From: a virus
Reading direction: 5' to 3' (one strand)
IMG/VR virus record: IMGVR_UViG_3300043409_002988
Location: 1-32,311 of that record
Length of the DNA stretch: 32,311 nucleotides
Made by a program: the position numbers and the translations under genes. Within the stretch, counting starts at the first letter, position 1. The number at the start of each line of letters is the position of its first letter. Positions 1,190-28,467 of this stretch are shown here, piece by piece. The notes under the pieces were generated by a model, which was given only the letters and a program-made list of their open reading frames with translations, was not told where the DNA came from and searched no databases.

Positions 1190-1214
1190 TACAGCTGTTT
1201 AGACTGTTGAGAAT
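1190..1214. promoter_or_regulatory. Motif copy TACAGCTGTT at the 3' end of the repressor gene
   Basis: The palindrome-family copy TACAGCTGTT (1190-1199) reaches the repressor stop codon, and ACTGTTGAGAAT follows at 1203-1214. The same 12-mer recurs at 2010-2021 on the other side of the repressor gene. Both lie in the short gap and tail between the repressor and exonuclease genes, where a bound protein could act as an operator or a transcription block for the leftward genes. Binding is inferred only. Confidence 0.45.
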
Positions 1215-1891
1215 ATGGCTGTTACCCGGCCGACCACCTTGTAGTCGTCGGTCGTCAGAGCAGGGTAGCCATCCCGGTTCGAGACGAACACCGGGCGCAT
1301 CTTTGCGTCGAACTCCACCCGGCGGATGATGTACCGGTTCAGCGTGTCCTGCTCCTTCGACTCGATCAGTACGTAGTCGCCCAGCCCGATGCCGGTGTCG
1401 CCGATTAGGCAAACGTCGCCGGCCTTGAACATGCGGAAGTTGCCGACCTCGATCTCGATCCCCAGCGGGTTGTCGATCTTGACCGCGAACTTCTCGTTGC
1501 GCAGACCGACGTCGATGTACTGGTCGGGATGGCCGGTGATGGTCTGGCTGCCGGTTCGATACACCGGGATGCCGACGCGCCGCGGCGTAAAGTCCTTCTG
1601 GTCCTCGTTGGTCTTGTCGCCGAAGGCCAGCCAGTCCGGATCAACGCCGAGCCAGCCGGCGATACGCTCGATGCGTTCGTAGCTGGGCTTGCCGCTGCCG
1701 ACGAGGTAGCGTCTGGCCATCTCGTAGGAGCAGCCGGCGACTGCCGCCAGTTCCCGGATGTCCTTGTGCTCCTTGGTGAGGAGCGGGCCTAGCCGGTTGG
1801 AGAACCGGGTCTTGTCGTTCGACGCGATGGACAGCTTTTTCGCTGACTCTAAGGTGGCGAACTTGTTGCTCTGGTTGGGTCGGTCTGTCAT
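1199..1891 (-). CDS. CI-like XRE-family repressor with degenerate S24 domain
   Basis: The 230-residue protein has an N-terminal XRE helix-turn-helix (ELAAVAGCSYEMARRYLVG, about residues 48-66, then PSYERIERIAGWLGVDPDWLAFG) and a C-terminal S24/LexA-like beta fold ending VGRVTAIFSTV. Family members repress lytic promoters and self-cleave after DNA damage. Here the position of the catalytic GDSM box reads KIDNPLG, and the catalytic lysine position reads YIIRRVEF, so both catalytic residues appear absent. The C-terminal half may therefore serve only for oligomerisation. The start at 1891 is set by GGGAG six bases upstream; a longer reading frame to 1960 has no such site. The gene diverges from the helicase operon, the usual place for a master repressor, and no Cro-like gene is visible. 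Confidence 0.88.
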   Translation of the reverse strand: MTDRPNQSNKFATLESAKKLSIASNDKTRFSNRLGPLLTKEHKDIRELAAVAGCSYEMARRYLVGSGKPSYERIERIAGWLGVDPDWLAFGDKTNEDQKDFTPRRVGIPVYRTGSQTITGHPDQYIDVGLRNEKFAVKIDNPLGIEIEVGNFRMFKAGDVCLIGDTGIGLGDYVLIESKEQDTLNRYIIRRVEFDAKMRPVFVSNRDGYPALTTDDYKVVGRVTAIFSTV

Positions 1892-2094: not shown

Positions 2095-3588
2095 ATGTCA
2101 TTCAAGCTACGCCAATACCAAGAAGACACCGTCGCCGAGGCCCGCCGCCGACTGGTCGATTTCAAGCGGGTGATCATCAAGGCCGCGACCGGGGCCGGCA
2201 AGACCGAGATGTCGATGGCCATCATCAAGATGGCGGTGGCCAAGGGCAAGCGGGTCGCCTTCATAGTCAATCGGGTTAAGTTGCTGGAGCAAACCAGCCG
2301 GCGGTTCTTCAAGGCCGGCATCCACCACGGCATCATCCAATCCACCAACACCAGAAACCCGGACGCCGCTGTGGTTGTATGTAGTATCCAGACAGTCGCC
2401 CGTCGCAGCCTACCCCCGGTCGATCTGATCATTGTTGATGAGGCGCACTGCGTCGCCGGCAGCAAGGACTACCGGGAACTGATTTTCTCCCGGGACAACG
2501 TGCCCTTGTTGGGAGTCACCGCAACCCCGTACTCCCGGGGCCTAGGCAAGTTCTACCCGGAGCTCAACGGCAAGCTCTTCGAGACGATGGTTGAGGCGGC
2601 AAGCATCGCCACCCTGACTGAGCAAGGGTTCCTCGTCGATTGCGACATCTACGCACCGAGCGAACCGGACCTGACCAACGTCCGCACCCAACGCAACAGC
2701 TTCGGCGAGATCGACTACAGCGAGACCGACTTGGCCAAGGCTGTGGATAAGCCGAACCTGATCGGCGACATCGTCGAACACTGGAAGCGCCTCGGCCGGG
2801 GCAAGCCAACCATCTGCTTCGCCACCAACATCCAGCACTCCAACCACATCGTCGCCGAGTTCAACGCGGCCGGCATCCCGGCCTGTCACATCGATTGCTA
2901 TATGGACGCCGAGGAGAGCGACCATCTGGTCGAGCAGTTCAAGGCAGGGGAATTCACGATCCTCTCCAACGTGGCGCTGTTGGCCGAAGGCTTCGACCAC
3001 CCGGAAACCGAGGTGATGATCCTTGCCAGACCGACGCGCTCCCTGATTCGCTACATCCAGATGGGTGGCCGCATCCTGCGCCCGGCCGACGGCAAGGAGC
3101 GGGGCCTGATCTTGGACCACTCCGGTTCGACCCTGCGCCTTGGCTATCCCAACGAGGATCGCGACATCCCGCTGTGCGACGGCCGTCCGCAGCAGACCAC
3201 CCAGCCGAAGAAGAAAGAGGAGCCGCTGCCGAAGAAGTGCCCCAGCTGCCACTTCCTCAAGCCGGCCCGGGTGCATGCCTGTCCGCGCTGTGGCTTTGCG
3301 CCGCAGAAGCCGCTGGGCATCGAGACCGATCGGCATGAGCAGCTGACCAAGCTGGACCGCAGCAAGGCGACGATGGCGGACAAGCAGAACTGGTACTCGC
3401 AGCTGGTCAAGGTGCGGATCGAGAAGAACTACAAGGAGCACTGGGCGGATCACGCCTACCGGGACAAGTTCGGGGTGTGGCCGCGCGGCATGAAGGATGT
3501 CCCGGCCAAAGAGGTGAGCAAGGAGGTGTCCGGCTGGCTGATCCACCGCAACATCAAGCGGGCCAAGAGCAGGGGGGCGCAAGCATGA
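2095..3588 (+). CDS. DEAD/DEAH-box SF2 helicase with C-terminal zinc finger
   Basis: The 497-residue protein shows the superfamily 2 motifs in order: Walker A ATGAGKT (31-37), DEAH (115-118), VTATP (141-145), and motif VI QMGGRILRP (322-330) in the second RecA domain. A C4 zinc finger follows (CPSC at 382-385, CPRC at 396-399). Phage proteins of this SSL2/Rad25-like type are ATP-driven DNA translocases or helicases thought to act in replication or recombination. The ATG at 2095 is preferred because GGAGGA lies six bases upstream; an in-frame start at 2041 would fall inside the operator dyads. It heads the rightward early operon and overlaps the next gene by ATGA. Confidence 0.93.
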   Translation: MSFKLRQYQEDTVAEARRRLVDFKRVIIKAATGAGKTEMSMAIIKMAVAKGKRVAFIVNRVKLLEQTSRRFFKAGIHHGIIQSTNTRNPDAAVVVCSIQTVARRSLPPVDLIIVDEAHCVAGSKDYRELIFSRDNVPLLGVTATPYSRGLGKFYPELNGKLFETMVEAASIATLTEQGFLVDCDIYAPSEPDLTNVRTQRNSFGEIDYSETDLAKAVDKPNLIGDIVEHWKRLGRGKPTICFATNIQHSNHIVAEFNAAGIPACHIDCYMDAEESDHLVEQFKAGEFTILSNVALLAEGFDHPETEVMILARPTRSLIRYIQMGGRILRPADGKERGLILDHSGSTLRLGYPNEDRDIPLCDGRPQQTTQPKKKEEPLPKKCPSCHFLKPARVHACPRCGFAPQKPLGIETDRHEQLTKLDRSKATMADKQNWYSQLVKVRIEKNYKEHWADHAYRDKFGVWPRGMKDVPAKEVSKEVSGWLIHRNIKRAKSRGAQA

Positions 3589-4517
3589 GGTACTCCACAT
3601 CTCGCGCACCATCCGCCGCCGAGGGCCGCTGGAAAGGGATCATGCAGCACTTGGGCGTCGAGTCCGCCCTGCTCACCGGCAAGTACGTCGATTGCCCGCT
3701 GTGCCAGAAGAGGAAGAAGTTCCGCTTCGACGACCTCGGGTGTGGCCGCTGGATTTGTGTGTGCGGTGCCGGCGACGGGTTCCAGCTGTTGCAACAGCTG
3801 TTTGGCTGGTCGTTCAAGGTGGCTGCCAGCAAGGTCGAGGAGGTGGCTGGCTCAGCACCTGTCCGGCCGGTCGATGCCGGTCCCAGCGACGAGTCGAAGC
3901 TGCGCATGTTGCGCCGGGCTTGGGCCGAGTCGATCGAGGTCAGGCGGGGCGACGTCGTGCATCGGTATATGGGTGGCCGCGGGCTGCGCGTGTCCGGACT
4001 TCAGAACATCCGGCTCCATCCGGGCATGACCTACCGGGACGTCGATGGGAAGGACTGCGGCAAGTTCCCGGTGATGCTGGCAAAAGTCATAGCCCCTTCT
4101 GGCACAGGCGTTTCGCTGCATCGCACCTACCTCAACACAGATGGCACCCGGCTGCAGGTTGATGACGCAAAGAAGCTGATGCCGGGCCTCGGCATAGCCG
4201 GTGCGGCGGTGCGTTTGTCCGGACTTGCGGAGGAAATCGGGGTGGCCGAGGGTATCGAAACAGCTGTTGCCGCCAGCCAGCTGTTCAACGTCCCGGTGTG
4301 GTCCTGCATCTCGGCCGGCGGGCTGGAGTCGTTCGTTCCCCCGGCCGGCGTCAAGCGGGTGGTGGTGTTCGGAGACAACGACGCGTCATTCACCGGGCAA
4401 GCCGCGGCCTACTCGCTGGCCAAGCGCATGACTCTCGCAGGTATCCCGGCCCGAGTGATGTTGCCCGAGGTGGTCGGGGCTGACTGGTGTGACGTATTGA
4501 AAGGAGCAAAGCAATGA
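3585..4517 (+). CDS. DNA primase/helicase-type protein: zinc ribbon plus Toprim domain
   Basis: The 310-residue protein begins with a zinc-ribbon primase motif (CPLCQKRKKFRFDD then WICVCGAGDGF, about residues 37-66) that reads template ssDNA in T7- and P4-type primases. A C-terminal Toprim domain follows, with the catalytic glutamate in VAEGIETAVAA (about 220-230) and acidic residues in VVVFGDNDASFTG (about 262-274). It probably makes RNA primers for phage replication. No helicase domain is fused, so the upstream SF2 protein or a host helicase may partner with it. The start overlaps the helicase stop (ATGA). Two copies of the genome-wide AACAGCTGTT motif lie within it, in different reading frames. 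Confidence 0.88.
   Translation: MRYSTSRAPSAAEGRWKGIMQHLGVESALLTGKYVDCPLCQKRKKFRFDDLGCGRWICVCGAGDGFQLLQQLFGWSFKVAASKVEEVAGSAPVRPVDAGPSDESKLRMLRRAWAESIEVRRGDVVHRYMGGRGLRVSGLQNIRLHPGMTYRDVDGKDCGKFPVMLAKVIAPSGTGVSLHRTYLNTDGTRLQVDDAKKLMPGLGIAGAAVRLSGLAEEIGVAEGIETAVAASQLFNVPVWSCISAGGLESFVPPAGVKRVVVFGDNDASFTGQAAAYSLAKRMTLAGIPARVMLPEVVGADWCDVLKGAKQ
3781..3802. repeat. Nested AACAGCTGTT motif pair forming an 18-bp perfect palindrome
   Basis: CAGCTGTTGCAACAGCTG (3783-3800) is its own reverse complement and contains two abutting members of the dispersed motif; the second is an exact AACAGCTGTT (3793-3802). It encodes QLLQQLF in the primase. The double dyad is the strongest intragenic instance of the motif. 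Confidence 0.7.
4259..4286. repeat. AACAGCTGTT copy plus a near copy in the primase gene
   Basis: An exact AACAGCTGTT (4259-4268) is read as E-T-A-V, a different frame from the copy at 3793. A partial copy CCAGCTGTTC follows at 4277-4286. The frame change within one gene argues that the DNA word, not the amino acids, is selected. Confidence 0.65.
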
Positions 4518-4891
4518 GCGGCGGTTACTGGCTATGGAAGCAGGGTGACCTGACGATCGCCTACGGGCAGCCGGTCCATCTAGAGGAGGTGGTCAAGCAC
4601 TACCCGGACGCGGTGCCGATCAAGCCCCGGTTCATCCGGCGCGGCGAGAAGGTGGTGCTGACCCGGCAGTTTCACGAAGACTTCAAGACGGTGATGGATT
4701 ACTACGGGGAGCCGGAACGGGACATCGAACAGCTGTGGAAGCCCTACGTTCGGGAGTACCCCAACGACGCGGTGCCGAAGTTCGCCTCGCTGGCGGCGGA
4801 CATTCGTCGCAGGTTGGAGTACGGGGTCAGTGAGAGAATACGCTCATCTGTGAAGGAGGCAGCAGATGCGGCCAATGTACGAGACCAGTGA
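4514..4891 (+). CDS. Hypothetical early protein, 125 aa
   Basis: I do not recognise the family. The product starts MSGGYWLWKQGDLTIAYGQP, is mixed alpha/beta and rich in charged and aromatic residues (VKHYPDAVPIKPRFIRRGEKVVL, then a helical C-terminus with RRRLEYGVSERIRSSVKEAADAA). No cysteine cluster, membrane segment or known catalytic motif is visible. The start overlaps the primase stop by ATGA and its 3' end overlaps the next gene by 26 bases, so it is clearly part of the replication operon. The motif variant AACAGCTGTG lies at 4728-4737. A replication accessory or inhibitor role would be only a guess from position. Confidence 0.75.
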   Translation: MSGGYWLWKQGDLTIAYGQPVHLEEVVKHYPDAVPIKPRFIRRGEKVVLTRQFHEDFKTVMDYYGEPERDIEQLWKPYVREYPNDAVPKFASLAADIRRRLEYGVSERIRSSVKEAADAANVRDQ

Positions 4892-5306
4892 CGATCTCGA
4901 CAACGAACGATCGGTGCTAACGGTTGTTGCAAATAGTTGGAGGTGCTCAGCCACCAAGCTGCCGCGCCGCTACGAGCTCGACTACGCACTGCATGAGCAG
5001 ATGGGTGCCCGGCGCATCAAGGCGTTCGCCGAGATCAAATGTCGCAACTTCCAGACCACCAAGTACGAGACCGTCGTCCTGTCGCTGATGAAGCTGGCGA
5101 AGGCAGAACAGCTGTCGCGGCTGTGCGGAGTCCCGTCGCTGTTGATTGTCCGCTTCGTTGATGAGGCCCGGTGGCTGAAGATCGCCGGGGATGGATCGGT
5201 GTCTCCGGTGAAGGTCGCGATTGGCGGGCGCACAGATCGCAACGACCCTGACGACATTGAGGTTGTTGCTCATTTCAAGATAGACCAGATGAGGTTGATC
5301 AATTGA
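4866..5306 (+). CDS. Putative PD-(D/E)XK nuclease-fold protein, 146 aa
   Basis: The protein has the layout of a small restriction-endonuclease-like fold: a leading acidic residue in LPRRYELDYALHEQ (about 32-45), then a beta strand carrying FAEIKCRN (E-x-K, about 54-61), then a helix beginning TTKYETVVLSLMKLAKAEQLSRL and a strand LLIVRFVD. This pattern matches the D...ExK catalytic core, so a DNA endonuclease is likely, though its substrate is unknown. The start has AAGGAGGCAGCAG immediately upstream and lies inside the end of the preceding gene. The motif variant AACAGCTGTC occurs at 5107-5116. The nuclease call is by pattern only. Confidence 0.6.
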   Translation: MRPMYETSDDLDNERSVLTVVANSWRCSATKLPRRYELDYALHEQMGARRIKAFAEIKCRNFQTTKYETVVLSLMKLAKAEQLSRLCGVPSLLIVRFVDEARWLKIAGDGSVSPVKVAIGGRTDRNDPDDIEVVAHFKIDQMRLIN

Positions 5307-5668
5307 GCCGGGTGCTGACCACCGAGGAGAAGATTCGCGAACGGCTGCGCGAGATTCGCGACTTCGCCCAACCCTACGCCGAGGCCAAGGCACAGGCCGG
5401 CTTCCTTGAGGACTTCAAGAAGTCGAAGCTGGCCATCCTGATGAAGAAGTACGAGGCGGCTGGCTACACCACAGCTGCCGCACAGGAGCGCGAGGCCCGG
5501 GCCGACCCGGAATACGTCGAGGTGCTGGAAGGGTTGCGCGCTGCCGTCGAGAAGGCAGAGCACCTTCGCTGGCAACTAATCACTGCCCAACTGGGCGCAG
5601 AGGTGTGGCGGTCCCTTGAGGCCAGCCGTCGCGCCGAGCTTCACTCAACTGGCTTCACCGGAGATTGA
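5303..5668 (+). CDS. Hypothetical helical protein, 121 aa, TTG start
   Basis: A mostly alpha-helical, charge-rich protein with likely coiled-coil stretches (EEKIRERLREIRDF near the start and LEGLRAAVEKAEHLRW around residues 74-89). No family is recognised. The TTG at 5303 is chosen because GAGGT sits about seven bases upstream and TTGA overlaps the preceding stop; the next in-frame start (GTG 5312) is less well placed. Small helical proteins at this place in phage replication operons are often binding partners of ssDNA-binding or recombination proteins, but nothing in the sequence demonstrates that. Confidence 0.7.
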   Translation: MSRVLTTEEKIRERLREIRDFAQPYAEAKAQAGFLEDFKKSKLAILMKKYEAAGYTTAAAQEREARADPEYVEVLEGLRAAVEKAEHLRWQLITAQLGAEVWRSLEASRRAELHSTGFTGD

Positions 5669-5670
5669 GA

Positions 5671-5937
5671 ATGAACCAGCAGGAACTCGTTGAAACCATT
5701 GCCAGCACCCAAAAGATCAGCAAGGCCAAGGCCCGCCGCATCCTGAAGGTGATCAATGGCTGTCTGCATGCCACCCTGAACCAGAAGGGGCGCATCCACG
5801 TTGCCGGTATGGGCACCTTCCGCGTCGTCCAGCGCGGCGAAATGCGCCGCTTCATCCCGAGCGTTGGCGAACACCGCATCCTGCCGCCGAGCAAGGCCAT
5901 CCGCTTCAAGGCATCGAGCAAGCTGTCGCTCGACTGA
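5671..5937 (+). CDS. HU/IHF-family nucleoid-like DNA-binding protein
   Basis: The 88-residue protein matches HU: N-terminal helices MNQQELVETIASTQKISKAKARRILKVING (MNK-ELVE-A plus the dimerisation helix), then the beta-saddle start GRIHVAGMGTFRVVQRG, which corresponds to the HU V-x-L-x-G-F-G-x-F segment. The DNA-wrapping arm is shorter and ends RFKASSKLSLD, close to the family's F-K-P-S-K-x-L-K end. It would bend DNA during replication, recombination or packaging. The start at 5671 follows GGAGA by seven bases. The gene joins the next by a TGATG overlap. Confidence 0.88.
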   Translation: MNQQELVETIASTQKISKAKARRILKVINGCLHATLNQKGRIHVAGMGTFRVVQRGEMRRFIPSVGEHRILPPSKAIRFKASSKLSLD

Positions 5938-6209
5938 TGAAATACACCCAGCGGGAACTGGCGCACATGATGGCTGTTAAACAGCTGTCGTGCGCTGTGT
6001 GCGGACACCCCGGCCCGAGCGATGCCCACCACGTTCTTGAGGGCAGAACCCCCGGCCGGAAGTCCTCGGCCTTTACCTGCATCCCCTTGTGTCGCGGTTG
6101 CCACACCGGTCCGAAGGGCATCCACGGTGACCGAGCAATGTGGAACATCTTCAAGGCCACAGAGCTTGGGTGCCTTTCCGAAACAATACAGAGGCTGTTT
6201 TATGAGTGA
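5937..6209 (+). CDS. Ref/DUF968-like HNH nuclease, small
   Basis: The 90-residue protein has the zinc-bound HNH layout CAVCG...DAHHVLEG...SAFTCIPLCRGCHTGPKGIHG: CxxC (about 19-22), the HH pair (about 31-32), then CxxCH (about 53-57). This resembles Ref, the RecA-dependent nuclease of phage P1, and related DUF968 proteins that cut at D-loops. An alternative is a structural HNH without nuclease activity. It lies among recombination genes, overlaps HU by TGATG at its start, and its last codons overlap the homing endonuclease start. The motif variant AACAGCTGTC lies at 5980-5989. Confidence 0.72.
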   Translation: MKYTQRELAHMMAVKQLSCAVCGHPGPSDAHHVLEGRTPGRKSSAFTCIPLCRGCHTGPKGIHGDRAMWNIFKATELGCLSETIQRLFYE

Positions 6210-6732
6210 AGAGTGGAGGCCCGTTCCCGGATACGGCGGGCACTACGAGGCGTCGTCGCTTGGCCAGATCAGGGTCAAGCCGCGGACCATCATCAAAAAG
6301 CACAGCAGGACAGGTAAGCTGGCTGAGTTTTCCTACCCGGGAAGGATTCTTCTGCAGTGCGATAACGGGTACGGCTATCCGCGCGTGACGCTTGGCGTCG
6401 AAGGCAAGACCATAAGCGTTGATGTCCATCGGATGGTGGCCAAGGCTTTCTACGGAGAGCCAGCGAAGGGGCTTGTCGTCTGCCACAACAACGGCGTGAA
6501 GACAGATAACCGGCCGGAAAACCTCCGCTGGGACACACAGAAGGCAAACAACGATGACAGGCGCAAGCACAAGACGCTGCCTGTCGGAGAGAACCATCCT
6601 ATGGCAAAGCTAAAACAGGCCGACATCGACTCGATCAGGAGCCGAGGCCTTCACTACACCGAGGTCATGCGTGAGTGCGGCATGTCTCGCACCCAATCCC
6701 ACCGCATCACCACCGGGAGGTCTTGGGTATGA
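6202..6732 (+). CDS. NUMOD4/HNH free-standing homing endonuclease
   Basis: The 176-residue protein starts with a NUMOD4-type motif (EEWRPVPGYGGHYEASSLGQIR, then the S-x-G-R-I-L element PGRILLQ) and continues with an HNH_3 nuclease core (VDVHRMVAKAFYG, VVCHNNGVKTDNRPENLRWDTQKANNDD, about 78-123). The C-terminal segment MAKLKQADIDSIRSRGLHYTEVMRECGMSRTQSHRI resembles a DNA-binding NUMOD helix-turn-helix. Such genes are selfish elements that cut phage genomes lacking them and spread by repair. Its base composition looks more AT-rich than its neighbours, and it interrupts a run of recombination genes, both consistent with insertion. The ribosome binding site is weak; the start overlaps the Ref-like gene end. 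Confidence 0.9.
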   Translation: MSEEWRPVPGYGGHYEASSLGQIRVKPRTIIKKHSRTGKLAEFSYPGRILLQCDNGYGYPRVTLGVEGKTISVDVHRMVAKAFYGEPAKGLVVCHNNGVKTDNRPENLRWDTQKANNDDRRKHKTLPVGENHPMAKLKQADIDSIRSRGLHYTEVMRECGMSRTQSHRITTGRSWV

Positions 6733-7064
6733 GCAAGCTGGCGAGAGATCGCGGCGCGCAGTTCGAGCGTGAGGTGTGCGCCCGGATCGAGGAGGTCATC
6801 GGCATCCAGACCAAGCGCAAGCTGGGTCAGGCCCGGGACTCGGGCAACGACATCGACCTCAAGCGGGAGAACGGGACGCACTTCCGGCTGGAGTGCAAGC
6901 GCCGCCGGGCGATCGGCAACCTGTACGAGTGGCTGCAACAGGCGCAGGACAGCTGTTCCACCCCGGGCGACACGCCTGTGGTGGTGTGCCGGGGCGACGG
7001 CGAGAAGCGGTTGGCGGTGATGTACCTCGACGACCTGCTGCCCTTGATCGCGGGTGACCTATGA
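6729..7064 (+). CDS. Putative PD-(D/E)XK Holliday-junction resolvase-like nuclease
   Basis: The 111-residue protein fits small phage PDDEXK resolvase-like enzymes: RDRGAQFEREVCARIEE (GxxFEReV, about 6-22), then D in DSGNDIDLKREN (about 37-48), and the catalytic strand FRLECKRRR (E-x-K, about 52-60), followed by LYEWLQQAQDSC, a helix that completes the fold. It would resolve branched recombination or replication intermediates before packaging. GGGAGG lies eight bases before the ATG, which overlaps the previous stop. A GACAGCTGTT motif copy is at 6948-6957. Exact substrate is inferred from the family. Confidence 0.75.
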   Translation: MSKLARDRGAQFEREVCARIEEVIGIQTKRKLGQARDSGNDIDLKRENGTHFRLECKRRRAIGNLYEWLQQAQDSCSTPGDTPVVVCRGDGEKRLAVMYLDDLLPLIAGDL

Positions 7065-7243
7065 GCACAGCCGACAACAGCGACCTGACCTGCAACAGCT
7101 GTTCCCACAGCTACGAGACCGAGGAGCTTGGCTGCATCAAGTTCCTGCGCTGCGACTTGGATGGCCGCGGCTGCTTCGGGCGTTGCGACCAGTTCAGCGA
7201 GAAGGCCCGGCCGGCAGAACAGGATGGAGGTCAGGGTGGCTGA
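7061..7243 (+). CDS. Small cysteine-rich protein, possible zinc ribbon, 60 aa
   Basis: The 60-residue product contains CNSCSHSY (about 11-18) and GCIKFLRCDLDGRGCFGRCDQF (cysteines near 25, 31, 38 and 42), enough to bind one or two zinc ions. No family is recognised. It overlaps the nuclease stop by ATGA. An exact AACAGCTGTT motif (7094-7103) encodes the first cysteine pair as N-S-C-S, a third reading frame for the motif. Confidence 0.65.
   Translation: MSTADNSDLTCNSCSHSYETEELGCIKFLRCDLDGRGCFGRCDQFSEKARPAEQDGGQGG
7094..7103. repeat. AACAGCTGTT copy inside a small zinc-protein gene
   Basis: Exact 10-bp palindrome read as N-S-C-S. It shows the motif in a frame different from both primase-gene copies. 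Confidence 0.65.
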
Positions 7244-9249: not shown

Positions 9250-9451
9250 AGCGGGCCTCCGGAAAGACAGCCACCCGGACGGTGGCCGGCGCACCGTTGC
9301 GCCAGTCGGTTACAGCATCCGGGAAACAGCTGTTCATCGTTTCAAAGGCAGCCTCCTTCGACAGGAAGCTGTAGGGCTCTTTGCCGCTCGGGTTCAGCCA
9401 GCACCAGCCGTCATCGAGCAGCATCTGGACACCGAAGCGGGGCTTGAGCAT
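9236..9451 (-). CDS. Hypothetical protein, 71 aa
   Basis: The product (MLKPRFGVQMLLDDGWCWLNPSG..., with FLSKEAAFETMNSCFPDAV) looks like a compact single-domain protein; the W-x-W and P-x-G spacing is typical of small phage proteins that display sequence-derived values, but no family is named. GGAGG lies six bases before the start at 9451. It overlaps the preceding gene by 41 bases. An exact AACAGCTGTT motif at 9325-9334 reads N-S-C-F. Confidence 0.65.
   Translation of the reverse strand: MLKPRFGVQMLLDDGWCWLNPSGKEPYSFLSKEAAFETMNSCFPDAVTDWRNGAPATVRVAVFPEARCENP
9325..9334. repeat. AACAGCTGTT copy in a leftward gene
   Basis: Exact palindrome inside the 71-residue leftward gene, read as N-S-C-F. 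The motif is thus present regardless of gene orientation. Confidence 0.65.
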
Positions 9452-9638
9452 GAGGAACCTCCAGATTGGTTGGGACGTTCAGGGGGAAGGCAGCCGGGCG
9501 CGGCTTCATCTGCCGGTCCGCGTAGGCAACAGCCCACTCGGCGCGCATCGCCCGGTTGGTCAGGTCAGGGTTGCGGAAGGCAAGCTCGTAACCCTCGCGC
9601 AACAGCTGTGATCTGCGGCTGTTGGCTGTGGGTTTCAT
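9411..9638 (-). CDS. Hypothetical basic protein, 75 aa
   Basis: The product starts MKPTANSRRSQLLREGYELAFRNPDLTNRAMRAEWAVAYADRQMKPRPAAFPL and is arginine-rich and mainly helical. No family is recognised. The start at 9638 overlaps the HD-protein stop by ATGA, while the 3' end overlaps the next gene by 41 bases. The motif variant AACAGCTGTG is at 9601-9610, near the N-terminus. Confidence 0.6.
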   Translation of the reverse strand: MKPTANSRRSQLLREGYELAFRNPDLTNRAMRAEWAVAYADRQMKPRPAAFPLNVPTNLEVPHAQAPLRCPDAAR

Positions 9639-10219: not shown

Positions 10220-10326
10220 ATCGGGTCTCCATAAAATCGCGGCACAACGCGCACCGCAGCGATTACAGCAATCAACAACTGTTCCAATTGAACCGGCTGT
10301 TGCCAACCGGTTCTCAGGACCAACTG
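10220..10326. promoter_or_regulatory. Intergenic gap with motif variant and hairpin
   Basis: The gap between the CobT-like and HD genes carries AACAACTGTT (10274-10283), a variant of the dispersed palindrome, and AACCGG 10291-10296 pairing with CCGGTT 10307-10312 around a CTGTTG-containing loop. No T-run follows on either strand, so a terminator is not supported. Confidence 0.4.
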
Positions 10327-12492: not shown

Positions 12493-12582
12493 GATGGACT
12501 CCAGAGGAAAGGAAAAATGGAACAGCGGGGAACAGGACTTCCACAACTGCCGGCTGTCACCCGGCAGCAATTGAGGCACTGG

Positions 12583-16201: not shown

Positions 16202-16209
16202 CAGCTGTT
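16200..16209. promoter_or_regulatory. AACAGCTGTT copy at the head of the RNA operon
   Basis: Exact palindrome overlapping the Gp49-like stop codon and ending nine bases before the -35 box of the promoter at 16218-16245. A bound protein could affect that promoter. Confidence 0.55.
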
Positions 16210-17163: not shown

Positions 17164-17171
17164 CCGCGGCT

Positions 17172-18639: not shown

Positions 18640-21114
18640 ATGTTGAGATCACTTGCACGAATCGGTCAAGAGGAGCCGCAGCAGGCGATGAGCCAATACG
18701 TCATCTCTTCGCTGTCTGGCTACATCGAGACCTGCTACAGCCGGGCCAAGGACGCCGCCCAGCCGCTACAGGAGCGCCTGCTGAAATGCGAGCGCCAGCG
18801 CCGTGGCGAGTACGAGCCGGACAAGCTGGCCGCGATCCGCATGACCGGCGGCTCCGAGGTCTATCTGATGCTGACGGACATCAAGTGCCGGGCAGCCGAG
18901 TCGTGGATCAAGGACGTGATGCTCAGCGCCGGCGAGGAGCCGTTCAAGCTCGAGCCGACCGAGATTCCCGAGGTGCCGCAAGAAATCATGCGGCAGATCG
19001 AACAGCAGACACAGCAGGATGCACAGCTGTTGATGCAGATGGGCTACGACCTGACGCAGGACCTGATCAGCGAGCAGGTTGAGTTCGTCAAAAACCAGAC
19101 CCGCCGCACCGTAGCCGATATGGCCGAGCGCGCGATGCGCAACATGAACGCCAAGATTCTGGACACGCTGCAAGAAGCGCAGTGGGACCGGATGCTGGAA
19201 GACGTGATCTACGACTTCGTCACCTTCCCCTTCTGCGTCATCAAGGGTCCAGTGGTCAAGCGCCGCAAGACCCTGAAGTGGGGCAACAACTGGGAGCCGG
19301 TGGTCGGCGAAGAGCTCGTTTATGACTTCGAGCGCGTCTCACCCTACGACTGCTTCCCGTCGCCGGCCGCAACCACTACGCAGGATGGCTACTTCTGCCG
19401 CCGGCACCGGATGATGATCCCTGATCTGCAGGCGCTGATCGGCGTCCCGGGCTACAACGACGCCGAGATTCAGGCTGCCATCGACGACTACAAGATCGCC
19501 GGGCTGCGCAGCATGCAGTACGGTGACACCGAGCGGGATCGGCTTGCCGGCCGCAACAGCTTCTACCAAGACGGCGAGATCATCGAGGCGGTTGAGTTCT
19601 GGGGTGATGCCCACGGCTCGATGCTGGTCGAGTGGGGCCTCGGCGTCGAGCCGAACAAGGTCTATCAGATCACCGCTTGGAAGGTCGGCACCCACGTCAT
19701 TATGGCGCAGGTCAATCCGGACCCGCTGGGCAAGCGCCCGTACAGCAAGGCCTGCTGGGAGAAAATCCCCGGCGCCTTCGCTGGCAAGGCCCTCGCCGAG
19801 ACGATGTCGGACATTCAGGAGCTATGCAACAACTCGGGCCGCGCGCTGGCCAACAACATGAGCGTCGCCTCCGGCCCTCAGGTCGAGGTGACTATCGACC
19901 GACTGCCGCCGGGCACTGAGTTGTCGAAGATGCACCCGTGGAAAATCTGGCAGACCACATCCGACCGGACAGGGGGAGGGCAGCCAGCGATTCGCTTCTT
20001 CCAGCCAGACATGAATGCTGATGCGTTGTTGCAAGTTCTTCAGTATTTCACCCGGATTGCCGACGAGGTGACCGGCGTCCCGAACTACATCTACGGTTCG
20101 ACCAACGTCTCCGGGGCAGGGCGCACCGCATCAGGCCTGTCTATGCTGATGGACAACGCCTCGAAGGGCATCAAGCAGGCGATCCTGTCGCTCGACGGCG
20201 CCACCAACGAGGTGCTCACCCGGTTGTATTTCAAGCTGATGATCAATGACCCAGACCAGTCGATCAAGGGCGACATGAAGGTTGTCCCGTCCGGTGTGGT
20301 CGGCGCGCTGATCAAGGACCACATCCAAGAGAAGCGTCAGCTGTTCCTGCAGACGGTATCCAACCCGACCGATCAGGGCATCATCGGCATCAAGGGTCGC
20401 GTCGAACTGCTGCGCGAGATGGCCAAGGGCCTGCACCTCGACATCGACAAGGTGCTGCCGGCGCCGGACATGATCGAACAGATGCACCAGTCCGGGATGG
20501 TTCCGCCCGAGGTCCAGCAGCAGCTGCAGGAAATGCAGGGCATGCTCCAGCAGGCGCAGCAACAGCTGGCCGACAAGCAGGCCGAGATCGACGTGCGCAA
20601 CCGCGAGATCGAAGCCAAGGTCGAAGTGGCCCGTATCTCGGCGGCAGCCAACGTCGATTCCCGCATGCACGAGAACGAGGTGCGCGCCGCCACCGACCGC
20701 GATGCCCGGGTCACCGTCGCCCAGATTGACTCGCAGACCAAGAAGGAAATCGCCGCAATGAACGCCGAGTCCGAGGCCCGGCAGCAAGAGCGCGACCTGA
20801 TCGCCGAGCAGCGCAAGCACCAGATGCAGCTGGAGGCTGAAGCCAACGCCCAGCAGACCCAACAGGAGCTTCAACAGCTGTTGCAGCCTGTGCTGAAGAA
20901 GATCGAGGTGCTGGAGAAGCAGGAGCCGGAGGAGCCGAAGGAAGAGAAGGAGGTTCCGCCCCCGCAGCCGGTGATCGTCAATGTCTCGATCGACGCCAAG
21001 ACCGGCACCGTCAAGAAGCAGATCAAGGTGCAGCACGACGCCAACGGCAACATCATCGGCGCGACCGCCGTCGAGGAAGAAGCCAAGGAGCCGGAGGCGG
21101 GCGGTGAGGCTTGA
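18640..21114 (+). CDS. Portal protein (P22-like) with long coiled-coil C-terminus
   Basis: The 824-residue protein directly after the large terminase has the portal architecture: a helical stem and clip region (GYIETCYSRAKDAAQPLQERLLKCERQRRGEY; WIKDVML), a core with DEVTGVPNYIYGSTNVSGAGRTASGLSMLMDNASKGIKQAI (typical of podovirus portals), and a very long Q/E/K-rich helical tail (about 620-790) with repeated IDVRNREIEAKVEVAR-type heptads, probably a barrel-like coiled coil. It forms the dodecameric DNA entry vertex. ATG 18640 is close to the terminase stop; ATG 18688 is an alternative. AACAGCTGTT (20873-20882) encodes Q-Q-L-L in the coiled coil. Confidence 0.88.
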   Translation: MLRSLARIGQEEPQQAMSQYVISSLSGYIETCYSRAKDAAQPLQERLLKCERQRRGEYEPDKLAAIRMTGGSEVYLMLTDIKCRAAESWIKDVMLSAGEEPFKLEPTEIPEVPQEIMRQIEQQTQQDAQLLMQMGYDLTQDLISEQVEFVKNQTRRTVADMAERAMRNMNAKILDTLQEAQWDRMLEDVIYDFVTFPFCVIKGPVVKRRKTLKWGNNWEPVVGEELVYDFERVSPYDCFPSPAATTTQDGYFCRRHRMMIPDLQALIGVPGYNDAEIQAAIDDYKIAGLRSMQYGDTERDRLAGRNSFYQDGEIIEAVEFWGDAHGSMLVEWGLGVEPNKVYQITAWKVGTHVIMAQVNPDPLGKRPYSKACWEKIPGAFAGKALAETMSDIQELCNNSGRALANNMSVASGPQVEVTIDRLPPGTELSKMHPWKIWQTTSDRTGGGQPAIRFFQPDMNADALLQVLQYFTRIADEVTGVPNYIYGSTNVSGAGRTASGLSMLMDNASKGIKQAILSLDGATNEVLTRLYFKLMINDPDQSIKGDMKVVPSGVVGALIKDHIQEKRQLFLQTVSNPTDQGIIGIKGRVELLREMAKGLHLDIDKVLPAPDMIEQMHQSGMVPPEVQQQLQEMQGMLQQAQQQLADKQAEIDVRNREIEAKVEVARISAAANVDSRMHENEVRAATDRDARVTVAQIDSQTKKEIAAMNAESEARQQERDLIAEQRKHQMQLEAEANAQQTQQELQQLLQPVLKKIEVLEKQEPEEPKEEKEVPPPQPVIVNVSIDAKTGTVKKQIKVQHDANGNIIGATAVEEEAKEPEAGGEA
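20873..20882. repeat. AACAGCTGTT copy in the portal gene
   Basis: Exact palindrome encoding Q-Q-L-L. Because CAG-CTG is frequent in coiled coils, this copy is weaker evidence of DNA-level selection than the T-A-V and N-S-C copies. CACAGCTGTT at 19022-19031 is a near copy in the same gene. Confidence 0.5.
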
Positions 21115-21424: not shown

Positions 21425-21633
21425 AGCTGATCCCCAACTGGCGGAAGGTCTCGCGCAAGGCGTACTCGGTGCGGCTGATGTATGTCGCCGCGGTGATGAC
21501 CGGCGCGGAGGCCCTGCTGCCGCTCGTCAGCGACTACTTCAAGCGCGGCACCTTCGCCATCTTGACCTTCTTCGTCGTGGCTGGCGCGATTCTGGCGCGG
21601 TTCGTTGTGCAGCAGGAGCTCCACGATGAGTAA
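21421..21633 (+). CDS. Holin-like protein (DUF7940-type)
   Basis: The 70-residue protein reads MKLIPNWRKVSRKAYSVRLM, a transmembrane-like stretch YVAAVMTGAEALLPLVSDYF, and a second one GTFAILTFFVVAGAILARFVV, ending QQELHDE. The charged N-terminus WRKxxRKAYSVRLM with two hydrophobic segments is typical of small class II holin-like proteins found next to endolysins. It would form or trigger inner-membrane lesions that time lysis. ATGA overlap with the upstream gene; its stop overlaps the endolysin start. Confidence 0.8.
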   Translation: MKLIPNWRKVSRKAYSVRLMYVAAVMTGAEALLPLVSDYFKRGTFAILTFFVVAGAILARFVVQQELHDE

Positions 21634-22090
21634 GCGCAAGATCGCTGCCGGAGCCGCCGCGCTGGCCGTCTTCGCCAGTGGATTCGAGGGCATCCGCTAC
21701 GTCGCCTACAACGACCCGCCCGGGATTCTCACCGTCTGCGCCGGGCACACCGGCCCGGACGTCAAGCCGAACATCCGCTACACCAAGGAGCAGTGCGACA
21801 AGTTCCTTGAGGAAGACGCGAGCGACGCGCTGGACACCGTCGATCGGTGCGCGCCCGGGCTGCCGCCGAACACCCGGCTGGCCTTCGGGGACGCCGTCTT
21901 CAACCTCGGCGAGACGATCGTCTGTAATGAACAGCGCAGCACAGCCGCCCGGCTGTTGGCAGCTGGTGATGTTGTTGCAGCCTGTAAGGAGTTGCCGAAG
22001 TGGAACAAGGCCCGGGTTGCCGGCGTGTTGGTTCCACTGCCCGGCCTGACCCGCCGCCGCAATGAGGAGATGCAGCTATGCCTATCCTGA
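21626..22090 (+). CDS. SAR-type GH24 endolysin (lysozyme)
   Basis: The 154-residue protein has a signal-anchor-release N-terminus (KRK then IAAGAAALAVFASGF, 6-20) and the canonical lysozyme triad spacing E-X8-D-X5-T: E21, D30 and T36 in FEGIRYVAYND...GILTVCAGHTG. It cleaves the glycan strands of peptidoglycan. SAR endolysins are exported by Sec without a holin hole and activate on release from the membrane, so the adjacent holin-like protein probably acts as a pinholin. AGGAG lies seven bases before the ATG. Rz starts inside its last codons. Confidence 0.92.
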   Translation: MSKRKIAAGAAALAVFASGFEGIRYVAYNDPPGILTVCAGHTGPDVKPNIRYTKEQCDKFLEEDASDALDTVDRCAPGLPPNTRLAFGDAVFNLGETIVCNEQRSTAARLLAAGDVVAACKELPKWNKARVAGVLVPLPGLTRRRNEEMQLCLS

Positions 22091-23932: not shown

Positions 23933-23949
23933 AACCTTGGAGGTGAGCC

Positions 23950-25644
23950 GTGCCGGCTGGTGATTTCATAACAAGCGACGCCACAGAGAAGGTCACCGGC
24001 GGGGCGTCGCTTGTGAGCGGGAACTTAAGTTCCAGAGACGGCAACATGTTTGTCGCAGTCATTGGCGCCAAGCCGTACAGCGCGACAATCAACACGCCGT
24101 CAGGATTCACCGAGCTCGGGACGCAGCAAACCAACGGCAGCACCGCCAGCGGCGCTGATGCAGGGTCAGTAACGTGGAAGGCGTTTTATAAAATCTGGCA
24201 CACAGGTGACCCAACAACCGTTTCCGCTACAGTGACCGGCGCAAACACATCAGTGATGGTCGTCGAAAGTCTGGGACTGAGCAATAGCTTTGGGACGTCT
24301 TGGGCCACGCCGCAGGTATTTCACGCCAGCGATACGACAGCAGACGGAACTTTCCTGCTCGAATTTACCGGTTCAAACGGCTCGTTTATAGCCGGGAAGT
24401 CTGCCTGCGTTATGGGGGCAATCGCAAACACAGACGCCGGGACCTTCCAGAGCGGCTCCGCATCGTTAGTATGTAGCGGGATCACCAACGGCCCGGTGAA
24501 CCTGAACAGGCAAACTAACGTCACTGGAGACGATAGCGCGCTGATTAATGTGTTCCTTTCTGACGCAACTGGGACCCAAAGCGGGGACTTTTCTTTCTCT
24601 GTCCCTATGAGCGCCAACCCAACCGGTGGCGGCGCCCTTGTTGTTGTTACTGAGTACCAGACGTTTTCCGCAACGATAAGCCAAAGCGCCTCCGCCGGAT
24701 CGATCACAAACAGCGGATTCCTTCTATCAGGCAGCGCATCAGAGCCAGCGTCCGGATCAGATTCGTCCGACGAAACGATGACGTTCAACATGTCGCAAGG
24801 CGAGTCGTCTGCCGCCGCTCACAGCCAATCGACGCTGATGATCGCAGAGGTTTCAGCCGACGTTCCAGCATCATCGGCAACGTCACAAAACTCAGCAACG
24901 ACGGCTCCAGTGTCGCTGACTGACCCGGCGTCTTCTGGGTCGAGTCAGAACGGCGGCATCACCTTCACGGTCACAGACACCGAGCCTGCAACCTCCGGGT
25001 CGTCGCAATCGGCATCCGCGGCGTTCGCTTCATCCGCCACCGAGACGGCATCCGCCGCTGACTCGCCGGCAACCGTCGTCGTCTTCGTCCCAGCAGGAAC
25101 AGCTGTCGGCTCAGCGTCAGATGCGCCAGTCGTGGTTATGGTTGCCCAAGCCTCCCGGGACGAATCGGCATCTGGCGCAACAACCCAGTCCTCGACGCAG
25201 GTCTTCCAGCTTGCCGGGACCGAGCCGCTGTCCGCGCTCGACTCATCCAGCGTGGCCAAGCCGCAGGTCTTCCGGCCGGTGTCCGATCTTGCCCAGAACG
25301 ACTGGGCGCCCTCGAGCGGTCCCGATCTCTACGCGATGATCGACGAGGGTCAGGCCAGCGACGCCGACTACATCTACACCTTCGCGGTCTCGACCTGTGA
25401 GGTCAAGCTATCGACCGGCGGGGTCCCGCTGTCGCGCGACGACCACAACCTCCGCATCAGGCTACTGGCCGGCACCGGGGCAATTCTCATTGCCCTGAAG
25501 CAGGGGGCAACGACCATCCACAGCCAGCAATACGCGCTGACCGGCTCCGCGCAGGACATCGTGATGGCCATCCCCAGCCTGTCGGCTCAGAACATCACCG
25601 ACTACACCAATCTTAGCGTGGCCTTCTCGGCACTTGTGAGCTAA
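23950..25644 (+). CDS. Serine/alanine-rich repeat surface protein A, 564 aa
   Basis: The protein has an N-terminal beta-sandwich-like domain (about 1-235, with INTPSGFTELG and FYKIWHTGDPTTVSATVTGANTS). A run of Ser/Ala/Thr-rich repeats with a period of 20 residues and a [TS]-E-x-x-x-A-x-[DS]-x-x-x-V-x-x-x-F pattern follows (about 240-435; for instance units starting TEPATSGSS, TETASAADS, DESASGATT). A C-terminal domain ends VAFSALVS. Such repeats fit a beta-solenoid or fibrous shaft exposed on the virion. The 5' half appears more AT-rich than the rest. It is a paralogue of the next gene. A GTG start follows GGAGGTGAG. Function as decoration, fibre or adhesin is inferred. Confidence 0.72.
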   Translation: MPAGDFITSDATEKVTGGASLVSGNLSSRDGNMFVAVIGAKPYSATINTPSGFTELGTQQTNGSTASGADAGSVTWKAFYKIWHTGDPTTVSATVTGANTSVMVVESLGLSNSFGTSWATPQVFHASDTTADGTFLLEFTGSNGSFIAGKSACVMGAIANTDAGTFQSGSASLVCSGITNGPVNLNRQTNVTGDDSALINVFLSDATGTQSGDFSFSVPMSANPTGGGALVVVTEYQTFSATISQSASAGSITNSGFLLSGSASEPASGSDSSDETMTFNMSQGESSAAAHSQSTLMIAEVSADVPASSATSQNSATTAPVSLTDPASSGSSQNGGITFTVTDTEPATSGSSQSASAAFASSATETASAADSPATVVVFVPAGTAVGSASDAPVVVMVAQASRDESASGATTQSSTQVFQLAGTEPLSALDSSSVAKPQVFRPVSDLAQNDWAPSSGPDLYAMIDEGQASDADYIYTFAVSTCEVKLSTGGVPLSRDDHNLRIRLLAGTGAILIALKQGATTIHSQQYALTGSAQDIVMAIPSLSAQNITDYTNLSVAFSALVS

Positions 25645-25648
25645 CCAG

Positions 25649-27847
25649 ATGAGCGCGAGCTTCGTAGCCAAGGGGGCGTGGGGCGCGGGAACCACGTCGT
25701 TCTCGCCCGGCATTCCAGCAGGGATGGCGGCCGGGGACTTTATGGTCCTCGACGTCCATACCTGCAACCAAGCGGTCACTACCCCGTCCGGATGGACTCC
25801 CTTCACCGGGACGCCAATCAGCACCGGCACGGCAGGCGCGGCCGGCGGCACCCGCCTGACCCAGTTCTACCGCTGGTGGCAGAGCGGCGATACTGCGCCC
25901 ACCGTCTCGGTCTCCGGCGGCACGGTATCGAACGGCATCATCTCCGGCTACCGTGGCATTGACCAGACAACGCCGTTTGACCTGAACCCGGTCAGCACAA
26001 CGCTGGCAACCGCCAACACGACGCTGACAATGACTGGCCTAACGACGGTCACCGACGGCGCAATGATCCACATCGCCGCGGCGCGCGACGTCGATGCCAA
26101 CTCCACCACTGGCGTCTCGGCCTTCACCAACGCCAACCTGACCGGCCTGACGGAGATTCACGACCAAACCGTCAATACCGCGGTTGGCGGCGGCATCTTC
26201 AACGCCTACGGCATCAAGGACACAGCCGGCGCGATCGGCAACACGACGATCACCCAGTCGAGCTCGATCGCCGTCGGCACCGTCACTGCCTTGCGCCCGG
26301 CGCTGGGAACCACTTACAGCGACTCCACGACGGAAGACCTGACAGCCGCCGACACCAAGGACGCCGAGGCTTCATTCGAGACGGCGCGCAGCGAGTCGGC
26401 AACAGCCGGCAACACCCAGACCGGCATCCTGTTCTTTACGGGCGACGTCACCGAGGCGCTGACGCTCAGCGACACCACCGACGCCACCGTCGTTCATAGC
26501 GTGATGGCGTATGTGTCGTGGCTGCGCCTCGAAGTCCCGGAAAGCACCGGCACCGTCTATGACGTCAGCGCGTCAGCCAACGCATCAGCACTGGACACCA
26601 ACACGGCTGCCGGCACCTTGCCGGTGGCGAACGATGCCACCTCGAGCGCCGGCGACACCAACGCGGCCGCATCTTCGTTTCCCGCCGACAGGTCGGAGTC
26701 ATCTTCCGCCGCAGAAAGCAACACGGCATCTGCCGCCCGGCCGGCAGACAATGCGGAATCTGCCGCCGCCGCCGACACCGAGTCGGTGGTTGCCACGATG
26801 CTCGGAGCGGCCAGCGAGCCGGCAACCGGTGCTGAGTCGAGCTCGGTCGTCACGACATTCGTGTCCGCCAGCACTGAAGCTGGATCGGCCGCAGAGTCGG
26901 GCAGCGTCATCGCCGCCTTCCCGGTAGCAGGCACCGCGTCCGCTTCGGCGTCCGACGCCGGAACAGGCAGCGCGCTGTACCCAGACTCTGGAACAGCTGT
27001 TGCCAGCGCATCCGACACGACGTCAGGCCAGTCCCTGATCCCGGCCTCCGATACGGAGTCGGTTACCTCGGCTGACGCGCAGTCGGTTTTGGCCACCTTC
27101 GTCTCCGCCACAACCGAGGCAGCATCGGCAACGGAGTCCTCGGCCGGCGTTGCTGGCACAGCGTTCGTTGATATTACCGAGTCGGCCTTTGCCGCAACGA
27201 GTGGCACCGCCGCAGCCGTATTTGTCAGCAGCAACAGCGAACCCGGGACAGCGAACGACACCCAGACCGTCATCACCCAGTTCGTCGCGGCGATGAACGA
27301 GGCGGCAGCCGCCGGCCACGCCCAAAGTGTGCTTGCTGTCGCTGTCTCCGCGGCAACCGAGACCTTGTCTGCGCAGGACGCCAAGGACGCGACGATCCTA
27401 TTCCTCTCGGCCGGCACCGCAGCAGCCACAGCGACCGACGCATCAAGCGGCGCCTTCATCTACCTGAGCTCCACCAACGAAGCTGCGTCGTCCGCCGACC
27501 TGATCGACTCGATCAAGCTGATGGTTGGCGCCGTCGTCGAGTCCGGGTTGGCCGACACCACGCAAGTCAACGGCGGTGTGCTCAACGTCTCTGCCGAGGG
27601 CGTGGCCGTGGCGCTGGATGTGGTCACCGGCTACAACGTCCATCTCGGTTCGACCACCGACCAGATTTACAAGATTCTGGCCAACAAGCAAGAGCTCGAC
27701 CCGGTTGCCGGCAAGTATCGCATCTACGACGACGACGGCGTGACGGTGCTCTGGGAGGCCGGGGCTTGGGAAGATGTTGATGCAACGATCCCGTACTCCG
27801 GGAAGCGTTTGCGCCGGATCGACAAGCTGGTTACGCCGTGGCAATAG
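25649..27847 (+). CDS. Serine/alanine-rich repeat surface protein B, 732 aa
   Basis: The N-terminal domain (about 1-220) has the same layout as the neighbour: VTTPSGWTPFTG, FYRWWQSGDTAPTVSVSG, SGYRGIDQTTPFD. At least 12 tandem 20-residue units follow (about 310-620; for example units starting SEPATGAES, STEAGSAAE, DTESVTSAD, NSEPGTAND, ATETLSAQD), so the DNA has a 60-base period. The C-terminal domain (about 630-732) contains YRIYDDDGVTVLWEAGAWEDVD, unlike protein A. The whole suggests a long solenoid stalk with two end domains, a surface decoration or fibre. AACAGCTGTT (26992-27001) encodes T-A-V in a repeat. The ribosome binding site is weak. Confidence 0.72.
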   Translation: MSASFVAKGAWGAGTTSFSPGIPAGMAAGDFMVLDVHTCNQAVTTPSGWTPFTGTPISTGTAGAAGGTRLTQFYRWWQSGDTAPTVSVSGGTVSNGIISGYRGIDQTTPFDLNPVSTTLATANTTLTMTGLTTVTDGAMIHIAAARDVDANSTTGVSAFTNANLTGLTEIHDQTVNTAVGGGIFNAYGIKDTAGAIGNTTITQSSSIAVGTVTALRPALGTTYSDSTTEDLTAADTKDAEASFETARSESATAGNTQTGILFFTGDVTEALTLSDTTDATVVHSVMAYVSWLRLEVPESTGTVYDVSASANASALDTNTAAGTLPVANDATSSAGDTNAAASSFPADRSESSSAAESNTASAARPADNAESAAAADTESVVATMLGAASEPATGAESSSVVTTFVSASTEAGSAAESGSVIAAFPVAGTASASASDAGTGSALYPDSGTAVASASDTTSGQSLIPASDTESVTSADAQSVLATFVSATTEAASATESSAGVAGTAFVDITESAFAATSGTAAAVFVSSNSEPGTANDTQTVITQFVAAMNEAAAAGHAQSVLAVAVSAATETLSAQDAKDATILFLSAGTAAATATDASSGAFIYLSSTNEAASSADLIDSIKLMVGAVVESGLADTTQVNGGVLNVSAEGVAVALDVVTGYNVHLGSTTDQIYKILANKQELDPVAGKYRIYDDDGVTVLWEAGAWEDVDATIPYSGKRLRRIDKLVTPWQ
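26560..27520 (+). repeat. 60-bp-period tandem repeat array in protein B
   Basis: About 12-15 diverged units of 60 bases encode 20-residue blocks with conserved [TS]E, A.[DE], V..F positions. The units differ enough in DNA to show old duplication with selection for the protein pattern. Confidence 0.65.
26992..27001. repeat. AACAGCTGTT copy in repeat protein B
   Basis: Exact palindrome, read T-A-V. The matching spot in the paralogue carries AACAGCTGTC (25098-25107), also T-A-V. Confidence 0.6.
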
Positions 27848-28467
27848 AAGACGACATCCTCCGGCTGCTGCTTGGCCAGAAGATCAGGGGCGCAGATGCC
27901 GAGTGGCACATCTACGACGAGGACGGAAATCACCTCGCCGACCCGGGCGGCGTCATCTGGCGCGGCGTCATCGGCGTCCTTCTCATGTGGGCCAACATCG
28001 AGGAGGAAGAACTCACCGACGAGGAGATGCTCAGCGTCGGCGGCGCCGTCGGCAAGATGGTCTGGTCGCGCACTGAGGACCTGCTGCGCCGAGTCAATCA
28101 GCACTTCAGGACTAGGCTGTATCCGCGCGATCGGCCAAAGCAGAAGATCGCCTACCGCAGCAAGGCCGCCGGCACGGAGAAGGGTGTTGTCGCTGGTTTC
28201 CGCCGGCCGGCAGACAACAGGAAGATCGACTGGTCGCGCATCTTCGACCCACCGCAACAGCCAACAGCTGTTCCGCCTGTTGCTGTTGTCAACAAGATTC
28301 CGCGCATTCTTGACCAATACGACGGAGCCGGTGTTGCGCTGCGAACGGAAGCCGATACACTTTCGCAGCAACAGTTGTTGTCAGCTGTTGTTGGTCCCGA
28401 TCCGGTTGCGATTGTCCGGAAAAGGAATGAGCAGGCGCTGGCGATGATCCTGATGGAAATGATGTAG
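27838..28467 (+). CDS. Hypothetical structural-region protein, 209 aa
   Basis: N-terminal VAIEDDILRLLLGQKIRGADAEWHIYDEDGNHLADPGGVIWRGVIGVLLMWANIEEEELTDEEML is acidic with one hydrophobic stretch (GVIGVLLMWANI). The C-terminal half is basic then helical (LSQQQLLSAVVGPDPVAIVRKRNEQALAMILMEMM). No family is recognised. The GTG start overlaps protein B's stop. It holds an unusual cluster of three motif members within 127 bases (28263, 28370 and 28380). Confidence 0.7.
   Translation: MAIEDDILRLLLGQKIRGADAEWHIYDEDGNHLADPGGVIWRGVIGVLLMWANIEEEELTDEEMLSVGGAVGKMVWSRTEDLLRRVNQHFRTRLYPRDRPKQKIAYRSKAAGTEKGVVAGFRRPADNRKIDWSRIFDPPQQPTAVPPVAVVNKIPRILDQYDGAGVALRTEADTLSQQQLLSAVVGPDPVAIVRKRNEQALAMILMEMM
28263..28389. 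repeat. Cluster of three AACAGCTGTT-family sites
   Basis: AACAGCTGTT (28263-28272) is exact; AACAGTTGTT (28370-28379) is directly followed by GTCAGCTGTT (28380-28389); CTGTTGCTGTTGTCAACA lies between at 28278-28295. This is the densest intragenic cluster in the window. Confidence 0.6.

Follow-up and report, generated by a model that had tools for sequence, protein, structure and literature searches.

We characterize a short palindromic DNA word, AACAGCTGTT, that recurs across IMG/VR record IMGVR_UViG_3300043409_002988, which is part of the genome of a temperate podovirus-like phage and is analyzed here over its whole 32,311 bases (“the window”). The window holds 10 exact copies of the word and 22 copies of its core, ACAGCTGT. 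Our analysis establishes that the word is enriched, sharply specific, phased with the DNA helix, under selection as a word and restricted to one phage family, and it represents a real, sharply defined, probably phage-specific code of putative binding sites. Judging from sequence comparisons, we put slightly better than even chances on a reading in which the 12-bp form of the word, CAACAGCTGTTG, is the site of one cooperative, dimeric, sequence-specific protein, probably phage-encoded, that occupies these temperate phage genomes in a silencing or architectural role. A sequence-only reading of the same DNA had earlier listed the 10 exact copies and 22 cores together with four AACARYTGTT variants, and we recovered every one of them at its position.

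Enrichment, site shape and helical phasing

AACAGCTGTT reaches 310 per Mb in the window, where it ranks, together with the words shifted from it by one base, above all other 10-mers (both strands counted). Markov models of order 1 to 4 predict 0.0-0.3 exact copies and 0.35-2.3 cores. Within genes, 9 exact copies and 15 cores are observed versus 0.36 and 1.29 expected from 1000 in-gene shuffles of synonymous codons, which keep the proteins and the codon use and reach maxima of 3 and 6. With the first gene set, ACAGCTGT ranks first among all 256 8-mer palindromes (18 versus 1.5 expected). Chance and codon bias are ruled out as the origin of the copies by the Markov nulls and the shuffles, and the sequence-only reading was right that the over-representation exceeds chance and is not caused by protein selection. 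Of the ACARYTGT sites that the first gene set places within genes, over half do encode QL-containing peptides, which favours a by-product of codon use or of repeated peptides (Q-L-L); that explanation is refuted by the shuffle (1.3 cores versus 15 observed) and by the occurrence of all codon phases among the in-gene copies, and we give it next to no probability.

The pooled sites define a 12-bp palindrome made of the rigid core ACAGCTGT, then A..T, then C/G. Among 180 such sites the centre is GC in 162, the A/T flanks are present in 64%, C/G follows, and there is no signal further out. Cores pooled over 11 carrier contigs number 163 versus 6.8 expected, a 24-fold ratio that is inflated because some of these contigs were picked by motif count. 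Single substitutions of the core occur at about 1-fold (range 0.1-2.3x), the highest being ACAACTGT at 2.3 and CCAGCTGT at 1.7.

Around the cores there are surplus CTGT half-sites at a distance of 9-13 bp from the CTGT of the core itself, one helical turn away (51 versus 5.4 expected). No other of the 256 tetramers is as enriched at this offset, where CTGT has 10.2 occurrences per position versus ~0.8 far from the core. A smaller surplus appears at 19-23 bp, with a weaker peak at about 21-22 bp. The phasing holds separately in clade A (22 versus 2.2 expected) and clade B (29 versus 3.1), and is also detectable in the window alone. As the half-site distances span codon phases, coding repeats do not explain them. 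Half-sites repeated in phase with the helix, as in an operator array, are a signature of a cooperative DNA-binding protein, and on this pattern a DNA-binding role for the putative sites is supported.

Control regions and candidate binders

The two strongest half-site arrays of the window are control regions. The strongest (1892-2094, peak at 1976) occupies the divergent region between an HTH_3 repressor-like gene (1199-1891, - strand) and a helicase gene (2095-3588, + strand). It contains ACAGCTGT at 1904, ACAACTGT at 2007, ACAGTTGT at 2037 and ACAACTGT at 2046, with half-sites 9-11 bp apart (1908/1919/1929 and 2027/2037/2046). These 203 bp thus hold 4 of the 28 ACARYTGT sites of the window (p = 3e-5), so the earlier claim that variants cluster at the repressor stands as to number; three of the four, however, have an AC/GT centre, whereas the dispersed copies have GC. 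A 12-bp repeat, ACTGTTGAGAAT, flanks the repressor gene region at both ends (2010-2031 and 1205-1216), and its copy at 2010 belongs to an inverted repeat, CTGTTGA-N6-TCAACAG, that is a possible true operator of the repressor.

This array is what favours an explanation in which the HTH_3 immunity repressor, a candidate binder in the window phage only, binds the switch and all dispersed copies and so blocks prophage transcription in the manner of stoperators. The difference between switch and dispersed centres speaks against it, as do the relatives. Among named phages, relatives of the window repressor bear palindromes of CTACTTAAAGTAG type at the switch. Four carriers, G017, G295, G292 and G294, encode repressors of another, S24-type family; in the first three the switch bears AATACCN4GGTATT palindromes and no AACAGCTGTT lies between the switch genes, and in G294 no clear operator was seen at the switch. 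The AATACCN4GGTATT palindromes probably serve clade B as operators of immunity. They lie on either side of the S24 repressor gene in G017 (L214, 3663-5140) and in G295 (L320, 4830 and 5733), with one or two extra copies elsewhere (G017 at 14135 and 15631; G295 at 52450). A direct search found no homologue of the window repressor in viral contigs or other carriers, and a profile search retrieved only the different S24 repressor of G017. An AlphaFold model of the window repressor made with no alignment was unusable (mean pLDDT 33). Taken on these comparisons, the immunity repressor probably does not bind the word in the relatives, and its binding all copies in the window phage seems unlikely to us.

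The second array (14366-14588, peak at 14419) lies between a CobS-like AAA gene (12583-13950, - strand) and the gene of an Sf6-like small terminase subunit (14592-15350, + strand), a rival candidate binder. It holds ACAGTTGT at 14374 and ACAGCTGT at 14481 and 14562, with half-site spacing of 8-10 bp (14471/14481 and 14485/14493); a third peak, at 28311, falls in gene 27838-28467. The region of the small terminase gene is a usual place for pac sites, and a top array is found upstream of this gene in G017 and within its first part in G295 and G292. The copies might then be packaging, replication or segregation sites, bound for example by the small terminase subunit or by a ParB-like protein. We regard this as very unlikely: packaging needs no site every kilobase, and G025, L158 and L172, which have no dense word, encode a terminase subunit closely homologous to that of clade B. 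More generally, homologues of the small terminase, CobS, CobT and RusA are present in phages without the word too. No ParB-like or KorB-like gene was found among the scanned proteins of the window and of part of G295, and no DNA methyltransferase among the scanned proteins of the window, whose record is a fragment.

Distribution in phages, in bacterial genomes and along the window

Carriers in this phage group bear the word about once per 1.3 kb. Relatives fetched by protein similarity alone carry it: L001/L002, whose large terminase is 80% identical and which have 6 cores in 9.7 kb, and L051, L052 and L056 (capsids 93%, 68% and 59% identical). Further carriers were found in G015-G019, and a family-blind motif-pair scan of IMG/VR added G291-G299, all from the podovirus-like family of the window. 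The richest counts include 43 cores in 58.5 kb in G295, where 41 of the 43 sites lie in called ORFs, and 36 cores in 45.5 kb in G294. In the IMG/VR scan dense copies were confined to this family bar one outlier, L300, whose apparent load is an artefact of a 30-bp tandem repeat. Other members of the family are without the word. A capsid alignment of genome contigs gave 43 loci, none with the word, and a terminase query of genome contigs gave no match. Two carriers or relatives have repeats of other kinds: G015 (L212-L213) has a second dispersed element, GGCGTGTACAG, in 7-8 copies alongside AACAGCTGTT, and G011 (L078, 6354-6800) has an 18-bp tandem repeat of GGCATCAAGGCCGGCTCA type, ~25 copies, in a probable tail or fibre gene.

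Where the window and its relatives align (blocks of 67-77% identity), their sites mostly fall at different places. Only the window core at 19023 aligns with a core in L001 (at 3120), and at aligned position 20337 L001 has a core where the window has TCAGCTGT. The exact copy at 20873 is just outside the aligned block, and the L001 portal gene has AACAGCTGTT at the corresponding place (4958). Similar densities together with this positional turnover therefore indicate selection for the word at the DNA level: in these alignments it is the word itself that is kept, not the surrounding DNA or the place.

In ~510 distinct Pseudomonadota genomes (samples of 249 and 274), AACAGCTGTT reaches at most ~9 per Mb (28 copies in 3.1 Mb), and its density is low too in 14 genomes that hold related prophages. 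The word is not a feature of the sampled bacterial genomes, which is strong though not final evidence from a sample not known to include the phage's own host. With the same limit, a general methylation or host motif, one of the origins proposed in the sequence-only reading, finds no backing in these genomes, and the phage-specific signal that it proposed is borne out by relatives that carry the word, by other phage families without dense copies and by the low bacterial densities.

Dispersed palindromes recur in the phage family with other words. In Bradyrhizobium sp. 139 (7.9 Mb), all eight copies of GTTACYN6RGTAAC are on two prophage-bearing contigs (L222-L224), one of which bears the capsid gene; on the other, the copies lie within the first 8 kb. 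In a 3.0-Mb betaproteobacterial metagenome-assembled genome, all five copies of ACTACWGTAGT are on the prophage contig (L109/L225), spaced ~2-3 kb apart. G008 (L073-L075) has 19 copies of a 16-bp palindrome, TTAGTACCGGTACTAA (<=2 mismatches, 14 perfect), across 59.5 kb. Some details of these cases stand apart. The Bradyrhizobium prophage has many half-versions, CTAACCCCRCGAGGTAAC, directly before start codons, overlapping the Shine-Dalgarno sequence, like start-associated sequences. In G008 one TTAGTACCGGTACTAA copy is just downstream of a strong sigma-70-like promoter, and an apparent gene for a Ku-like protein lies near 44766; presumably TTAGTACCGGTACTAA resembles the Xanthomonas LexA box, a likeness that a search did not confirm.

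These data bear on the possibility that the motif is determined by the host, as a HIP1 or DNA-uptake-sequence type of word or as sites of a host nucleoid protein, and that the phages mirror it. Carriers scattered over the capsid tree would fit such an origin, and the sharp in-gene enrichment of a single word resembles HIP1 (PMC4390886). We nevertheless hold it to be quite unlikely, given the ceiling of ~9 per Mb in the sampled genomes versus 310 in the window, the lack of dense copies in any other phage family, a helical phasing that is unexpected for a methylation-linked or uptake word, and the absence of the related prophages' words from the rest of the host genome.

Along the phage genomes, core density is higher outside the virion genes than inside: 1.03 versus 0.40 per kb in the window, 1.1-1.2 versus 0.32 in G295, 1.21 versus 0.29 in G294, 0.80 versus 0 in G017 and, more weakly, 0.43-0.78 versus 0.19 in G018. 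Of the 28 ACARYTGT sites in the window, 17 are in genes and 11 are intergenic, where intergenic DNA makes up 11% of the sequence (p = 1e-4, corrected gene calls). Exact copies lie at 3793-3802 and 4259-4268 in the primase gene, at 7094-7103 and 9325-9334, at 12053-12062 and 12434-12443 in a CobT-like gene, at 16200-16209 on the stop codon of ORF 15884-16201, at 20873-20882 in the portal/head-tail adaptor gene, and at 26992-27001 and 28263-28272. Cores outside the arrays are found at 1191-1198 between the exonuclease and repressor genes, at 4729-4736, 5108-5115, 5981-5988, 6949-6956 and 9602-9609, at 17119-17126 (28 bp upstream of the start codon of the large terminase gene), at 19023-19030 and at 25099-25106. 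Two further variants are AACAACTGTT at 10274-10283, at the start of the HD hydrolase gene, and AACAGTTGTT at 28370-28379.

The remaining genes identified are, on the + strand, those for primase (3585-4517), HU-like (5665-5937), HNH (6022-6732) and RusA-like (6675-7064) proteins, large terminase (17154-18638), portal/head-tail adaptor (18640-21114), lysozyme (21605-22090) and capsid (30445-31422), and on the - strand those for a YqaJ/RecE-like exonuclease (207-1115), an HD hydrolase (9635-10306) and a CobT-like VWA protein (10327-12579). A tRNA-Gly (tcc) gene at 16806-16880 lies between the small and large terminase genes. The longest + strand ORF (10288-13992, 1234 aa) is a spurious anti-sense artefact, because conservation and protein families indicate the - strand CobT-like and CobS-like genes. 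The gene strand of the copies had accordingly been misjudged in part, those at 12053 and 12434 being in a - strand gene. A megablast of window bases 1-25000 versus named phages gave no match, and the sole matches of the last 7.3 kb in a more sensitive search were Rhizobium phage capsid genes (68-69% identity).

Mode of action and relation to known systems

If the favoured reading of CAACAGCTGTTG as the site of a cooperative dimeric protein is right, that protein would occupy about one site per 0.8-1.5 kb of phage genome. It would build helix-phased arrays at control regions (between repressor and helicase genes, and at the small terminase gene, either ahead of it or within it). Within genes it would form lone dimers or short arrays, at the highest density away from the virion-gene block. 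The binder would be encoded by the phage and could act in the prophage to silence early transcription globally or to obstruct it as a road-block, possibly compacting the DNA as well, in a mode that might be likened to the KorB operators of RK2 or the L5 stoperators while being neither.

Several observations weigh against this reading, besides the motif-based choice of some pooled contigs. The phasing is absent in G294, and L056 has too few sites to tell. Many sites occur singly, far inside genes. A sensitive protein comparison found no transcription factor common to the window, itself a fragment, and clade B. Finally, on the capsid tree the carriers are spread over no fewer than three places (window/L051/L052/L187/L155/L156, a group in which all are carriers except the short L155 with two cores; L056; and G017/G018/L208), a pattern that a host factor would account for as well.

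Dispersed sites are known from several systems. Mycobacteriophage L5 and its cluster A relatives have more than twenty copies of one short operator/stoperator across a temperate genome; these sites are 13-bp, asymmetric and orientation-dependent, lie in promoters and short intergenic gaps and are bound by a monomeric immunity repressor (PMC9283540). The window shares with them many copies of one short site dispersed in a temperate phage genome. ACARYTGT sites lie in the switch of the window, but the word is missing from the switch of G017, G295 and G292, which have other operators. In contrast to the L5 sites, the word is a perfect palindrome and lies mostly in genes rather than in promoters or short gaps. 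The proposal of dispersed operators like those of L5, made in the sequence-only reading, is partly supported: the phased half-sites back a DNA-binding role, while operators of the immunity repressor in the L5 manner find no support. The SPbeta repeat SPBRE, bound by MrpR, is a 15-bp repressor site in about ten promoter regions that was first noticed by sequence alone (PMC10516654); it too is one site repeated around a prophage, whereas the family of the window has tens of sites, most of them within genes. Plasmid RK2 offers a further parallel in its KorB operators, which serve a global long-range silencer (PMC11790492) and are likewise dispersed contiguous palindromes, but the word of the phages is different, its half-sites are phased by one helical turn, and the scanned proteins include nothing KorB-like or ParB-like.

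The resemblance to HIP1 is of another kind. HIP1 copies lie largely inside genes. The HIP1 element of cyanobacteria is likewise an exact 8-bp palindrome that is hugely over-represented (PMC4390886), but it fills host chromosomes and accompanies methyltransferases, whereas the present word is phage-specific and has phased half-sites. The word is dispersed-operator-like yet differs from L5 stoperators in defining features, and the sampled genomes give no support to a HIP1-like host motif. In the portions of the open literature accessible to us, neither AACAGCTGTT nor ACAGCTGT as a whole word is tied to any bacterium or phage; judged by title and abstract, the matches are human or Drosophila studies.

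Dispersed repressor sites were known before in a few phages, located in promoters or intergenic gaps. In the present phages a fixed word is dense inside genes, with fast positional turnover and phased half-sites, and is independent of the immunity repressor in several carriers. A more far-reaching version, which we advance tentatively as a possibility, is that the phage encodes a genome-coating protein, distinct from its immunity repressor, that reads a word kept about once per kb in coding sequence and so would form a prophage-specific silenced chromatin, with related phages using other words. Related prophages with other words, such as that of Bradyrhizobium, offer systems that can be cultured and in which one could look for the protein that matches the word. 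If true, such a prophage-specific silencing or packing code would be a new layer of lysogeny control readable from sequence alone.

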